64,000 nt of DNA from Streptomyces sp. NBC_01689 (GTDB lineage: Bacteria > Actinomycetota > Actinomycetes > Streptomycetales > Streptomycetaceae), in contig NZ_CP109592.1 of the NCBI RefSeq assembly GCF_036250675.1, forward strand, positions 6,944,001 through 7,008,000, given 5' to 3'. The notes below the pieces were generated by a model. It worked only from the letters and a program-made list of their open reading frames with translations, was not told where the DNA came from and did no database searches. Positions 19,838-63,565 of this stretch are shown piece after piece. Within the stretch, counting starts at the first letter, position 1. Each line of letters opens with the position of its first letter. The position numbers were made by a program, and so were the translations under genes.

Positions 19838-21012
19838 ACGGGCTGCTCCGTGCGGGTGAGGCTGAACCGGTGAGGGGTGAAGGGGCGCGCTTCCTCGGGA
19901 AGCTCGCCCGAGGCGAGGACGTGCGCCATGACGTCCCCGGTGACCGGGGTGAGCAGGACGCCGTTGCGGTGGTGGCCGGTGGCCAGCAGCAGTCCGTCCA
20001 GCCCGGTCGGGCCGAGCATCGGGGCGTTGTCCGGGGAGCCGGGGCGCAGTCCCGCCCGGGTCTCGGTGAGCGGCAGTTCGGTGATCCCGGGAACCAGCTC
20101 GTGGGCGTCGCGCAGCAGCTCGTACACGCCGCCCGCGGTCACCGTGGTGTCCCAGCCCAGCTCCTCGCTGGTCGCGCCGACGACGAGCTCGCCGCTCTCG
20201 CGCGGCACCAGATAGACCTGGCTGCCGCGGACCACGGCGCGGACGGTGCGGCTCAGGAACGGTGCGTACCGCTTCGGCACGGTCAGCCGCAGCACCTGCC
20301 CCTTCACCGGCCGCACGGGCGGCCGCACCTCGTCGGGCAGGCCCTCAAGGCGTCCGCTCAGGCTACCGGCGGCCAGCACCACCCGTGCCGCCGACTGCTG
20401 CTCGCCGGCCGAGGTGACGACCCCGGTGGCCCGCTCCCGGACCACCGTCAGCCGCTCCGCCCAGGTCCGGTGGAACACCACTCCGGCCCGCTCGCAGGCC
20501 ATGACCAGGGCCTTCGCCAGACGGCGCGGGTCGATCTGGTGGTCGCCGTCTACCCGCAGGCCACCCCGGACACCGGGCGCGAGCATCGGCTCCAGCCGAC
20601 GGCACTCGCGGCCGCTGAGCCACTCCGAGTCGAGCCCCGAACGGTTCTGCAGGGCGTGCAGTTCACGCAGGTGGGCGCGGTCGTCGGAGTCCAGCGCGAC
20701 GGCCAGCGTGCCGCACCTGCGGTAACCGAGATCCTGGCCCGTCGCCTCGGTGAGCTCGGCGACGAAGTCCGGATAGCGGCGGGCGGAGGCGAGGTTCAGG
20801 CCCAGCAGGGTCTGCTCGCCGTGGTGCAGCTCGGTGACGGCCGCCAGCATCCCGGCGGCGACCTGCGCGGCCCCGCCGCCCGGCTCCGGGTCCACGACCG
20901 CCGTACTGAAGCCGCGCTGCGCGGCCCGCCACGCGGTGACCAGGCCGATGACGCCGCCCCCCACCACCAGGACGTCGGACGTGACGGATCGCTCCGCCGG
21001 TGTACGCGACAT
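19834..21012 (-). CDS. thiO: Glycine oxidase ThiO
   Basis: FAD-dependent glycine oxidase that supplies dehydroglycine for thiazole synthesis. The 392 residues begin with the dinucleotide-binding VVGGGVIGL motif near residue 15, then the DAO-family blocks VDPEPGGGAAQVAAGML and, at the C terminus, LRPGSPDNAPMLGP and TGHHRNGVLLTP. It is the first gene of the thiO-thiS-thiG operon. The ATG lies just after the TPP riboswitch, whose end contains the only plausible binding site, so the riboswitch may control translation. Confidence 0.93.
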   Translation of the reverse strand: MSRTPAERSVTSDVLVVGGGVIGLVTAWRAAQRGFSTAVVDPEPGGGAAQVAAGMLAAVTELHHGEQTLLGLNLASARRYPDFVAELTEATGQDLGYRRCGTLAVALDSDDRAHLRELHALQNRSGLDSEWLSGRECRRLEPMLAPGVRGGLRVDGDHQIDPRRLAKALVMACERAGVVFHRTWAERLTVVRERATGVVTSAGEQQSAARVVLAAGSLSGRLEGLPDEVRPPVRPVKGQVLRLTVPKRYAPFLSRTVRAVVRGSQVYLVPRESGELVVGATSEELGWDTTVTAGGVYELLRDAHELVPGITELPLTETRAGLRPGSPDNAPMLGPTGLDGLLLATGHHRNGVLLTPVTGDVMAHVLASGELPEEARPFTPHRFSLTRTEQPV

Positions 21013-21022
21013 GGGCGTCCAG

Positions 21023-21118
21023 CCCCTCCCTTCGCCGGCATGACCCGGATCAGGTTCGTACGGTCGGAGGCCGCCAGCCTCCCTCTCAGCCCGGTGCGTC
21101 CGGGCTCCCGCGAGTGCT
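21023..21118 (-). promoter_or_regulatory. TPP riboswitch (THI element)
   Basis: Read on the minus strand the leader holds CTGAGAGGG, then GAACCTGATCCGGGTCATGC, then GGCGAAGGGAG, the conserved core of the thiamine pyrophosphate aptamer, in the right order. It ends about 10 bases before the thiO start and should repress the operon when TPP is high. Confidence 0.95.
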
Positions 21119-21173
21119 CTACGGTGACCACCCTAGCTCTCCGCCATATGTCTCAGTAAGGGAGCCTCCGTCC

Positions 21174-58556: not shown

Positions 58557-59786
58557 ATGCCGTTGACCCCCGAGGACGTGCGGAACAAGCAGTTCACGAC
58601 CGTCCGCCTCCGAGAAGGCTATGACGAGGACGAGGTCGATGCCTTCCTCGACGAGGTCGAAGCCGAACTGACGCGCCTGCTCCGCGAGAACGAGGACCTG
58701 CGGGCGAAGCTGGCCGCGGCCACGCGCGCGGCCGCGCAGAACCAGCAGCAGCAGGGCATGCGCAAGCCGCCCGAGCAGCAGGACCAGCAGCAGGGGCCGC
58801 CGCAGGGCATGCGCGGTCCGGGCGCTCCCGTACCCGCCGGCATATCGGGCCCGCCGCAGCAGCAGATGGGCGGCCCCATGGGCGGCCCGCCCCAGCTGCC
58901 GAGCGGTGCGCCGCAGCTGCCCGCGGGCCCCAGCGCCCAGGGTGGCCAGCAGGGCCAGGGCCCCATGGGTCAGGGTCCGATGGGCCAGGGCCCCATGGGC
59001 CAGGGTCCGATGGGCCAGGGCCCCATGGGCCAGGGTCCGATGGGTCAGGGTCCCGGTCAGCAGATGCAGCAGCAGATGCCCGGCCAGATGCAGCAGATGC
59101 AGCAGATGGGCGGCCCGATGGGCGGACCCATGGGTGGTCCCATGGGCGGTCACGGCCAGCAGATGGGGCAGCCCGGCCAGGGTCCCGGTGGCGACAGTGC
59201 CGCCCGGGTGCTCTCGCTGGCCCAGCAGACCGCCGACCAGGCGATCGCCGAGGCCCGTTCCGAGGCCAACAAGATCGTCGGTGAGGCCCGCAGCCGCGCC
59301 GAGGGTCTGGAGCGCGACGCCCGCGCCAAGGCCGACGCGCTGGAGCGGGACGCGCAGGAGAAGCACCGCGTCGCGATGGGCTCCCTGGAGTCCGCCCGCG
59401 CCACGCTGGAGCGCAAGGTCGAGGACCTGCGCGGCTTCGAGCGCGAGTACCGCACGCGTCTGAAGTCCTACCTGGAGTCGCAGCTGCGGCAGCTGGAGAC
59501 GCAGGCGGACGACTCGCTCGCCCCGCCGCGTTCCCCGGCCGCTCCCTCGCTGCCCTCGCCCGCGGCGCCCTCGATGGCTCCGGCCGGCGCGAGCGCTCCG
59601 TCCTACGGCGGCGGACAGGGCATGGGCGGTGCTCCGGCACCGGCGGCGCCCTCGTACGGCGGGCAGCAGCAGATGTCTCCCGCGATGACCCAGCCGATGG
59701 CTCCGGTGCGGCCCCAGGGCCCGTCGCCGATGCAGCAGGCGCCCTCGCCGATGCGCGGGTTCCTCATCGACGAGGACGACAACTGA
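58557..59786 (+). CDS. divIVA: Polar growth determinant DivIVA (Wag31)
   Basis: Marks hyphal tips and branch sites and directs polar wall growth. The 409 residues begin with the membrane-binding block [20 protein letters not shown], then a coiled coil to residue 60 ([18 protein letters not shown]). The middle (65-215) is Gln/Pro/Gly/Met-rich and has six tandem GQGPM repeats. A second long coiled coil covers about 220-320 ([19 protein letters not shown] onward). The tail is Pro/Ala-rich and ends in [14 protein letters not shown] has GAGGTGAAGAG before it. Confidence 0.96.
58953..59042 (+). repeat. Six 15-base units inside divIVA (GQGPM x6)
   Basis: Units alternate between a CCCATG and a CCGATG version, giving 30-base dimers. 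A diverged seventh unit follows. Copy number is likely to vary between strains. Confidence 0.85.
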
Positions 59787-60110: not shown

Positions 60111-63100
60111 TCAGGCCTTGTGCAGACGGAAGGTCAGCGACAGGGACTCGTCGGTGAACGGGGCCCCGTAGGCGTCGTCGGCCTGGCCCTGGGCGAAGTC
60201 CGTGGCGAGGACCTCGTCGGCGATGAGGTCCGCGTGCTCGGACAGGGCCGAGATGACGGCCGGGTCCGTGGACGTCCAGCGCAGGGCGATCCGGTCCGCC
60301 ACGTCGAGGCCGCTGTTCTTGCGGGCCTCCTGGATGAGGCGGATCGCGTCGCGGGCGAGGCCCGCCCGGCGCAGCTCCTCGGTGATCTCCAGGTCGAGCG
60401 CGACCGTGGCCCCCGAGTCGGAGGCCACCGACCAGCCCTCGCGCGGGGTCTCCGTGATGATGACCTCGTCGGGAGCCAGGGTGACCGTCTCGCCCTCGAC
60501 CAGCACCGCGGCCGTGCCCTCGCGCAGGGCGAGGGAGAGGGCCGCCGCGTCCGTCTCGGCGATGGCCATGGCGACGGCCTGGACGCCCTTGCCGAAGCGC
60601 TTGCCGAGCGCGCGGAAGTTCGCCTTGGCCGTGGTGTCGACCAGCGAGCCGCCCACTTCGGAGAGCGAGGCGAGACCGCTGACGTTCAGCTCCTCCGTGA
60701 TCTGCGCGTGCAGTTCGGGGTCGAGCGAGTCGAAACCGGTCGCCGCGATCAGCGCCCGGGAGAGCGGCTGGCGGGTCTTGACGCCGGACTCCGCGCGGGT
60801 GGCGCGGCCGAGCTCGACGAGCCGGCGGACCAGCACCATCTGCCGTGACAGCCCGGGGTCGATCGCGGACAGGTCCGGCTCCGGCCACGACGACAGGTGC
60901 ACGGACTCCGGGGCGCCCGGCGTGACCGGCGCGATCAGGTCCTGCCAGACCCGCTCGGTGATGAACGGGGTGAGCGGGGCCATCAGCCGCGTCACCGTCT
61001 CGACGACCTCGTGCAGGGTGCGCAGCGCGGCCTTGTCCCCCTGCCAGAAGCGACGGCGAGAGCGGCGCACGTACCAGTTGGAGAGGTCGTCGACGAACGC
61101 CGAGAGAAGCTTCCCGGCGCGCTGGGTGTCGTAGGCCTCCAGCGCCTGGGTCACCTGGTCGGTGAGGGCGTGCAGTTCGGACAGGAGCCAGCGGTCCAGG
61201 ACCGGACGGTCGGCCGGGGCCGGGTCCGCCTCGCTGGGCGCCCAGCCGGAGGTGCGGGCGTACAGGGCCTGGAAGGCGACCGTGTTCCAGTACGTCAGGA
61301 GCGTCTTGCGGACGACCTCCTGGATGGTGCCGTGGCCGACCCGGCGGGCCGCCCAGGGGGAACCGCCGGCCGCCATGAACCAGCGCACCGCGTCCGCGCC
61401 GTGCTGGTCCATCAGCGGGATCGGCTGCAGGATGTTGCCCAGGTGCTTGGACATCTTGCGGCCGTCCTCGGCGAGGATGTGGCCCAGGCAGACCACGTTC
61501 TCGTAGGACGACTTGTCGAAGACGAGCGTGCCGACCGCCATCATCGTGTAGAACCAGCCGCGCGTCTGGTCGATGGCCTCCGAGATGAACTGCGCCGGGT
61601 AACGGCTCTCGAAGATCTCCTTGTTCTTGTACGGGTAGCCCCACTGCGCGAACGGCATCGAACCCGAGTCGTACCAGGCGTCGATGACCTCCGGGACGCG
61701 GGTGGCCGTCGCCTCGCACTGCGGGCAGGTGAAGGTGACGGCGTCGATGTACGGGCGGTGCGGGTCCAGCTCCGACTGGTCGGTGCCGGTCAGCTCGGTC
61801 AGCTCCGCGCGGGAGCCGACACAGGTGAGGTGGTCGTTCTCGCAGCGCCACAGCGGGAGCGGGGTGCCCCAGTAGCGGCTGCGGGACAGGGCCCAGTCGA
61901 TGTTGTTGTTCAGCCAGTCGCCGAAGCGGCCGTGCTTGACCGACTCCGGAAACCAGTTGGTCTTCTCGTTCTCCTGGAGGAGACGGTCCTTGACGGCGGT
62001 GGTGCGGATGTACCAGGACGGCTGCGCGTAGTAGAGGAGCGCGGTGTGGCAGCGCCAGCAGTGCGGGTAGCTGTGCTCGTACGGGACGTGCTTGAAGAGC
62101 AGTCCGCGGTCCTGGAGGTCCTCGGTGAGCTTCTCGTCCGCCTTCTTGAAGAAGACGCCGCCGACGAGCGGGACGTCCTCCTGGAAGGTGCCGTTCGGGC
62201 GGACCGGGTTCACCACCGGCAGTCCGTACGAGCGGCAGACCTTCAGGTCGTCCTCACCGAAGGCGGGGGACTGGTGGACGAGGCCCGTACCGTCCTCGGT
62301 CGTCACGTACTCGGCGTTCACCACGTAGTGCGCGGGCTCGGGGAACTCGACCAGCTCGAAGGGCCGCTGATAGGTCCAGCGCTCCATCTCGGCGCCGGTG
62401 AAGGTCTCACCGGTGGTCTCCCAGCCCTCGCCGAGCGCCTTCCCGACGAGCGGCTCGGCGACGACGAGCTTCTCCTCGCCGTTCGTGGCGACCACGTAGG
62501 TGACGGCGGGGTGCACGGCGACCGCGGTGTTGGAGACCAGCGTCCACGGCGTCGTCGTCCACACCAGGAGGGCGGCCTCGCCGGCCAGCGGACCGGAGGT
62601 GAGGGGGAAACGGACGTAGACGGACGGGTCGACGATGGTCTCGTAGCCCTGTGCCAGCTCGTGGTCCGACAGGCCTGTCTCGTCGCGGGGGCACCACGGC
62701 GCGACGCGGTAGTCCTGGACCAGCAGGCCCTTGTTGAAGATCTCCTTCAGCGACCACCACACGGACTCCACGTACTCGGGGTCCATCGTGCGGTACGCGT
62801 CGTCCAGGTCGACCCAGTAGCCCATGCGGTTGGTGAGGTCGGTGAAGGCGTCGGTGTGACGGGTCACGGACTCGCGGCACCTGGCGTTGAACTCGGCGAT
62901 GCCGTACGCCTCGATGTCCTGCTTGCCCGTGAAGCCGAGCTCCTTCTCCACGGCGAGCTCCACCGGCAGGCCGTGGCAGTCCCAGCCGGCCTTGCGGGCG
63001 ACGTGGTAGCCGCGCATGGTGCGGAAGCGCGGGAAGACGTCCTTGAAGACGCGCGCCTCGATGTGGTGCGCTCCCGGCATGCCGTTCGCGGTGGGCGGGC

Positions 63101-63248
63101 CCTCGTAGAACACCCACTCGGGGCGCCCCTCGGACTGCTCCAGGCTCTTGGCGAAGATCTTCTGCTCGCGCCAGAAATCGAGCACGGCGTGCTCGAGGGC
63201 GGGCAGGTCGACCTGGGCGGGCACCTGGCGGTACGTCGGCGTTGTCAT
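60111..63248 (-). CDS. ileS: Isoleucyl-tRNA synthetase, type 2 with GAHH signature
   Basis: Charges tRNA-Ile. The 1045 residues fit the eukaryote-like IleRS2 class found in Actinobacteria. The catalytic signature reads GAHH (Gly59-Ala60-His61-His62), where class I enzymes normally read HXGH. KMSKH in GRKMSKHLGN is the second signature. The CP1 editing domain covers about residues 200-400, and the C-terminal half has the anticodon-binding helices and the extended tail of type 2 enzymes. ATG 63248 follows CCGGAGG, which lies in the T-box leader; a longer in-frame start would read through that leader. Confidence 0.95.
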   Translation of the reverse strand: MTTPTYRQVPAQVDLPALEHAVLDFWREQKIFAKSLEQSEGRPEWVFYEGPPTANGMPGAHHIEARVFKDVFPRFRTMRGYHVARKAGWDCHGLPVELAVEKELGFTGKQDIEAYGIAEFNARCRESVTRHTDAFTDLTNRMGYWVDLDDAYRTMDPEYVESVWWSLKEIFNKGLLVQDYRVAPWCPRDETGLSDHELAQGYETIVDPSVYVRFPLTSGPLAGEAALLVWTTTPWTLVSNTAVAVHPAVTYVVATNGEEKLVVAEPLVGKALGEGWETTGETFTGAEMERWTYQRPFELVEFPEPAHYVVNAEYVTTEDGTGLVHQSPAFGEDDLKVCRSYGLPVVNPVRPNGTFQEDVPLVGGVFFKKADEKLTEDLQDRGLLFKHVPYEHSYPHCWRCHTALLYYAQPSWYIRTTAVKDRLLQENEKTNWFPESVKHGRFGDWLNNNIDWALSRSRYWGTPLPLWRCENDHLTCVGSRAELTELTGTDQSELDPHRPYIDAVTFTCPQCEATATRVPEVIDAWYDSGSMPFAQWGYPYKNKEIFESRYPAQFISEAIDQTRGWFYTMMAVGTLVFDKSSYENVVCLGHILAEDGRKMSKHLGNILQPIPLMDQHGADAVRWFMAAGGSPWAARRVGHGTIQEVVRKTLLTYWNTVAFQALYARTSGWAPSEADPAPADRPVLDRWLLSELHALTDQVTQALEAYDTQRAGKLLSAFVDDLSNWYVRRSRRRFWQGDKAALRTLHEVVETVTRLMAPLTPFITERVWQDLIAPVTPGAPESVHLSSWPEPDLSAIDPGLSRQMVLVRRLVELGRATRAESGVKTRQPLSRALIAATGFDSLDPELHAQITEELNVSGLASLSEVGGSLVDTTAKANFRALGKRFGKGVQAVAMAIAETDAAALSLALREGTAAVLVEGETVTLAPDEVIITETPREGWSVASDSGATVALDLEITEELRRAGLARDAIRLIQEARKNSGLDVADRIALRWTSTDPAVISALSEHADLIADEVLATDFAQGQADDAYGAPFTDESLSLTFRLHKA

Positions 63249-63255
63249 CAGCGAG

Positions 63256-63565
63256 CTTCCTCCGGCGGACTTTCTGCCTTCCGTCCGGAGGGACGAGAGC
63301 CCTTGCCGCTGCCCAGTAGCTGCTGCGGACGCCGTGTGCGGCGTGCTCCCGCGGTACCACCCTCCTTGGCTCGCCGGCACGTGCTGTGCGCCGGCGGGCC
63401 CCCTCATTGGGGTCGCGATGCCGGGTCTACTCGCCGCGGCCTGTCGGCTGCGGCTTTCTTCCGGCGGCTCCGGGGTGATCTTCGCGTCGCGCTGGCCCCC
63501 GGGCTTCCACCGTCCCCGGGTCGCTCCTGGCCGCGTACGCCGCTACTCGTCCCCATCCACGCTTC
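63256..63565 (-). promoter_or_regulatory. Isoleucine T-box leader of ileS, probably translational
   Basis: On the minus strand the leader contains the T-box core AGGGTGGTACCGCGG (63349-63363) and, upstream, a Stem I with AGTA and GAA loop parts and the codon ATC (63477-63479) followed by A in the specifier position. CCTCCGG (63285-63291) is an exact complement of the CCGGAGG ribosome site (63259-63265), and no T run follows the core. Uncharged tRNA-Ile should free the ribosome site. Confidence 0.88.

Follow-up and report, generated by a model that had tools for sequence, protein, structure and literature searches.

Type 2 isoleucyl-tRNA synthetases (IleRS2) carrying G/AXHH at the place of the class I signature HXGH have been described by Brkic et al. 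2023 (PMC10485003). The legend to their tree of 379 sequences gives 86 G/AXHH and 77 HXGH enzymes for IleRS2, 158 HXGH enzymes for IleRS1 and 41 archaeal sequences, four group counts that sum to 362. The starting case of that study was the IleRS2 of S. griseus, an enzyme that shares the motif and is inhibited by mupirocin with a Ki in the mM range (PMC10485003), and the S. griseus IleRS can sustain the growth of E. coli without a functional IleRS (PMC4861432). Motif exchange in other IleRS2s established that G/AXHH causes hyper-resistance: the Ki of the D. radiodurans enzyme fell from 6600 uM with its ALHH to 8.1 uM as an HVGH mutant, that of the Priestia megaterium enzyme (PmIleRS2) rose from 1.08 uM for the HVGH wild type to 460 uM for the GVHH mutant (Table 1), and that of the Thermus enzyme rose from 0.20 to 35 uM when it was made GVHH (PMC10485003). 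According to the structures, the shifted motif of IleRS2 accommodates a His in third place with its nitrogen positioned as that of the canonical first His, and modelling lets this third His clash with mupirocin (PMC10485003). Engineered GVHH lowers the activity of two IleRS2s (kcat from 66 to 6.2 per s in one and from 27.9 to 7.0 per s in the other; PMC10485003), and the activity level of the enzyme analysed here can therefore not be read from the motif alone.

The window, i.e., the whole stretch of 64,000 nucleotides of Streptomyces sp. NBC_01689 that was analysed, contains one IleRS gene, ileS, with the following features of the gene, its product and its leader:

60111..63248, minus strand: ileS, encoding an IleRS of type 2 with 1045 amino acids (translation; TIGR00392; isoleucine--tRNA ligases of Streptomyces as nearest proteins, at up to 94% identity)
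61443..61457, minus strand: KMSKH, residues 598-602, the second class I signature with His in fifth place (sequence)
63063..63074, minus strand: GAHH, residues 59-62, replacing HxGH (reverse complement GGAGCGCACCAC, Gly-Ala-His-His)
63081..63098, minus strand: PPTANG, residues 51-56, with Thr53 at the position of the type 1 Tyr (sequence)
63259..63263, minus strand: GGAGG, ten bases ahead of the ileS start codon ATG (63248) and likely the Shine-Dalgarno sequence of the gene
63349..63363, minus strand: AGGGTGGTACCGCGG, the T-box sequence of the ileS leader (pattern)
63467..63562, minus strand: candidate for the T-box Stem I (RF00230 with 36.1 bits against a gathering score of 93)

The mechanical list of open reading frames lets the ileS frame begin at an upstream ATG at 63407; the start at 63248 has GGAGG ahead of it and agrees with the N-termini that were read for 11 of the best 120 relatives. 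Among these best 120 of 7999 scored relatives, those named by organism are Streptomyces. In a profile search the product scores 904.7 bits against TIGR00392 and passes the curated cut-off of 621.4. The best matches among solved structures are the PmIleRS2 chains 8c8w, 8c8v, 8c9d and 8c8u with 887-900 bits and 1ile, which we take to be the Thermus IleRS, with 895.5 bits, whereas the type 1 structures score lower, with 340-348 bits for the PmIleRS1 chains 8c9e/8c9f and 350.6 bits for 1ffy, which we take to be the S. aureus IleRS. The identity of the 8c-series chains is given in the data availability statement of PMC10485003. Eukaryote-like IleRS have Phe or Thr where type 1 enzymes have Tyr-59 (PMC4861432), and with Thr53 the window IleRS bears this mark of type 2, the type 1 enzymes reading PPYANG. 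By the structure-chain scores and by the tree described below, in which it lies on the side opposite the IleRS1-type rows with a branch support of 100, the protein is nearer to type 2 than to type 1. A plus-strand frame of 409 amino acids at 58557-59786, situated past the end of ileS, shows tandem GQGPM units and, by eye, a DivIVA-like N-terminus.

The swapped signature itself, first noticed in a sequence-only reading of the window, was confirmed: GGAGCGCACCAC on the minus strand, in the frame starting at 63248, encodes Gly-Ala-His-His at residues 59-62. That reading had left room for a true HXGH elsewhere in the first 80 residues; a pattern search for H-x-G-H over all 1045 residues found none. 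Alignment of the motif columns, a check it had proposed, here with solved IleRS2 chains, places GAHH opposite HVGH of 1ile and 8c8v and opposite GVHH of 8c8w, gap-free across the motif in all three cases. With Gly in first and His in third place the enzyme fits the G/AXHH definition. All 52 Streptomycetaceae rows, the window's own genome included, have GxHH at these columns, and the motif is thus more than a chance occurrence.

The distribution of GxHH was determined from 269 rows aligned with the window protein (Streptomycetaceae, 52; a draw over the phylum, 70; a draw over the class Actinomycetes, 67; named loci, 80). The Streptomycetaceae rows stem from 52 genomes, one of which entered through the class draw, out of 119 with a match among 121 searched, the phylum draw from 69 genomes out of 157 with a match among 158, G270 giving two rows, and the class draw from 67 genomes out of 155 with a match among 158. 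Best-scoring loci were taken automatically and the others were picked by hand, mostly one per family and in Streptomycetaceae the lowest scoring, so that the row sets are not random samples; they may also overlap, with L200/L019 and L204/L111 as possible pairs. Within the phylum draw, GxHH is present in 35/35 IleRS2 rows of the T-A-N type, while the 14 IleRS2 rows of the PPF type have HxGH (13) or HxGN (1) and none of the 21 IleRS1-type rows has GxHH (HxGH 10, HxGT 11). The class draw holds 54 GxHH rows out of 67, the remaining 13 being of the PPF type with HxGH. The named loci, which were found with patterns including YEGPPTAN and are the 80 top-ranking ones among at least 590 matches, divide into 48 GxHH and 32 HxGH rows, a proportion uninformative on frequency. 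By record title, their GxHH enzymes belong to Actinomycetota, Chloroflexota, Ignavibacteria, Gemmatimonadota, Acidobacteria, Clostridia and Bacilli, and also to one Deinococcota bin and to gammaproteobacterial bins; many of these rows are metagenome bins.

Several individual rows deserve mention. Two IleRS matches are listed for each of G133, G209, G239 and G270 in the phylum draw and for G310 and G399 in the class draw, and the G270 pair was read: it comprises two IleRS2 genes, L092 and L093, one with GVHH and one with HYGH. As G270 is a draft of 97% completeness with 2% contamination, it may be a mixed bin. In family f67, L172 (G347) has GTHH and the four other rows read (L171, L185, L186, L195) have HYGH, which suggests a gene replacement. 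The one row titled Bifidobacterium, L209, has GTHH. Bifidobacteria are intrinsically resistant to mupirocin, one strain having an MIC above 1,024 ug/ml, and this was attributed to other substitutions and to mupB (PMC11091697); that account is compatible with a role of GTHH but is no evidence for it, since other determinants are invoked.

In a FastTree tree of 162 rows, from which the motif columns had been left out, at least two changes are required to separate GxHH from all other rows, and the window protein lies within nested sets of 3, 17 and 26 rows, every one of them GxHH. Distribution and tree thus agree with the published picture. They also bear on how the swap spread. It could be a nearly neutral state that the IleRS2 fold has reached by fixation within lineages, with resistance as a by-product rather than the cause of its spread, and we regard this as a serious contender, slightly short of an even chance. 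The fixation of GxHH across groups as wide as the Streptomycetaceae and most of the class draw fits such a history, as does its presence, by record title, in many phyla that need not have met mupirocin, and as few as two changes on the tree imply that the motif is mostly inherited. The authors of PMC10485003, however, favour selection by the antibiotic, and their reconstruction contains at least two gains of the motif.

The second class I signature is altered as well. The Streptomycetaceae and class sets together contain 106 GxHH rows, each with a His in the fifth place (103 KMSKH, 3 RMSKH); this His is also found in 1/35 GxHH rows from other classes of the phylum and in 19/48 GxHH rows of the named loci. 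A strict rule by which KMSKH would be a required partner of GxHH is not supported, because KMSKH also occurs in three canonical HIGH rows of Bacillota (L220, L228, L231) and because GxHH rows of other classes nearly all do without it; a test of the coupling by independent pairs had 2 pairs available. That both signatures of the housekeeping IleRS were remodelled together in Actinomycetes, with KMSKH close to fixation beside GxHH and its extra His aiding ATP or pyrophosphate handling or the exclusion of mupirocin, appears improbable to us. 'KMSKH' is absent from the text of PMC10485003, the Fig. 2b of which covers the KMSKS region and may show the change, and a literature search for KMSKH returned papers that, judging by their titles and the opening of their abstracts, have no bearing on it; its presence in the actinomycete GxHH enzymes read may be less known. 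In L263 and L271, GxHH enzymes of two bins with Bacilli in the title, the signature reads KMHKS, the third residue of KMSKS now being His.

A further deviation concerns type 1 enzymes. HXGH is stated to be present in all IleRS1 in the legend to Fig. 2 of PMC10485003. In 11/21 IleRS1-type (PPYANG) rows of the Actinomycetota phylum draw, the fourth His of HIGH is replaced by Thr, giving HxGT (L041, L050, L052, L055, L056, L060, L062, L084, L089, L102, L105). The same form was found in 12/23 readable rows among 24 loci of one class, for which 26 genomes were searched; besides the eleven rows listed above, IleRS1-type genes with HxGT include L277, L280, L281, L282, L284 and L290, and the names given for relatives of one such enzyme include Candidatus Aquicultor. 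A literature search on the IleRS HIGH motif in Coriobacteri-named taxa gave no match, and HxGT in some IleRS1-type enzymes of Actinomycetota may be less known.

The sequence-only reading had treated ileS as the housekeeping gene and as the sole IleRS gene of the window, and this extends to the genome. The assembly (9,958,319 bases, 9.96 Mb, in 2 contigs) is rated 100% complete with 2.61% contamination, and the window gene is the single place over the TIGR00392 cut-off; a second ileS over this cut-off was found nowhere in the genome. Seven weaker matches are spread over three other open frames with lengths of 879, 1037 and 639 amino acids, which by their length we take to be ValRS, LeuRS and MetRS. 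Exactly one IleRS match at E <= 1e-100 was obtained in 119/121 Streptomycetaceae genomes from 17 genera, and the two genomes in which a match at this threshold was absent are G022 and G074, the latter of 76% completeness. The housekeeping role was judged right. IleRS homologues such as SbzA can occur in Streptomyces (PMC9437257), and in CARD-type annotation ileS of Streptomyces is labelled as a gene for mupirocin resistance (PMC12982422), both of which would suit a second, specialised IleRS, be it a copy that confers resistance or a homologue serving biosynthesis. We consider such an origin of the window gene very improbable: unless the assembly misses a gene, it is already contradicted by the genome, which is rated complete and has no other IleRS above the cut-off, the family genomes with any match have just one each, and a conserved T-box leader precedes the gene. 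A sequencing error or misalignment is weaker still, to the point of being negligible, and GAHH as an artefact was ruled out by the gapless alignment, by the absence of HxGH elsewhere in the protein and by the independent genomes with the same motif.

The pattern of the T-box sequence recurs upstream of ileS in 31/31 other Streptomycetaceae loci with flanks. At the gathering threshold Rfam gave no T-box match in the ileS leader, and the candidate Stem I comes from a permissive search below that threshold; by reading of its alignment, an AUC (Ile) codon at 63479-63477 would lie in the specifier loop. A hairpin over the Shine-Dalgarno sequence is predicted from the pairing CCUCCGG/CCGGAGG, but its stability does not exceed that of shuffled sequences, with a z of -1.04 and 27/200 shuffles folding as well or better. 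Translational ileS T-boxes of Actinobacteria were predicted in 2005 (PMC1262725), and those of Nocardia and Mycobacterium have been solved with tRNA-Ile (PMC7583486). By analogy with these leaders, ileS expression is probably under the control of a translational T-box, in which uncharged tRNA-Ile would release the Shine-Dalgarno sequence of ileS. The sole match of the window at the Rfam gathering threshold is a TPP riboswitch on the minus strand (21010-21121, 63.4 bits).

Taken together, we are highly confident that the window gene encodes an ordinary, single housekeeping IleRS2 with a natural GxHH motif, for which mupirocin resistance is to be expected without a second ileS and a translational T-box is probable. 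Many members of the IleRS2 branch naturally carry G-x-H-H in place of H-x-G-H. By analogy with the published enzymes, the tip of helix alpha1 would be shifted in IleRS2 such that a third-position His can be accommodated next to the adenine with no clash, its nitrogen would occupy the usual place of the nitrogen of the first HxGH His, and activation of isoleucine should still function. The bulky third His should collide with mupirocin. As activation should tolerate the third His while mupirocin should be kept out by it, a high resistance of the cell is expected with this single ileS. The high-level resistance proposed in the sequence-only reading is hence predicted by published GXHH enzymes, but it is not new, the S. 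griseus IleRS2 being a precedent; the observation was correct, and the literature already covers the motif, the mechanism and the genus itself. Housekeeping IleRS enzymes of Streptomyces, and those of most actinomycete families sampled, normally carry the swapped signature, and organisms with such an IleRS should be expected to be intrinsically mupirocin-resistant. For annotators this means that the swap should be taken neither as an error nor as a newly acquired resistance gene.

Compared with the described systems, the window IleRS is closest to the S. griseus IleRS2, likewise a type 2 housekeeping enzyme of Streptomyces with a non-canonical signature (PMC4861432; PMC10485003), which differs in being from another species and the motif of which is taken here from the paper. 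The D. radiodurans IleRS2, compared through the same paper, also has a natural non-canonical motif with His in third place and a Ki of 6.6 mM, but it reads ALHH rather than GAHH and belongs to another phylum (PMC10485003). The best solved relatives by sequence are the structures of the Priestia megaterium IleRS2 (8C8U, 8C8V; mutant 8C8W), the mutant showing how GxHH fits into an IleRS2. Here the sequence-only reading was mistaken in ascribing a natural GXHH enzyme to the species, since the wild type of this species, with its Ki of 1.08 uM, has HVGH and GVHH was made by mutation, which also sets it apart from the window IleRS. The MupA and MupB models match the window protein over most of its length with 782.5 and 741 bits, far under their curated cut-offs of 1900 bits each, and the gene here is a single chromosomal one. 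The ileS leader is of an already known kind: with the actinobacterial translational ileS T-boxes (PMC1262725; PMC7583486) it shares the T-box before ileS and a possible hairpin covering the Shine-Dalgarno sequence, and it differs in a Stem I that scores under the Rfam gathering threshold.
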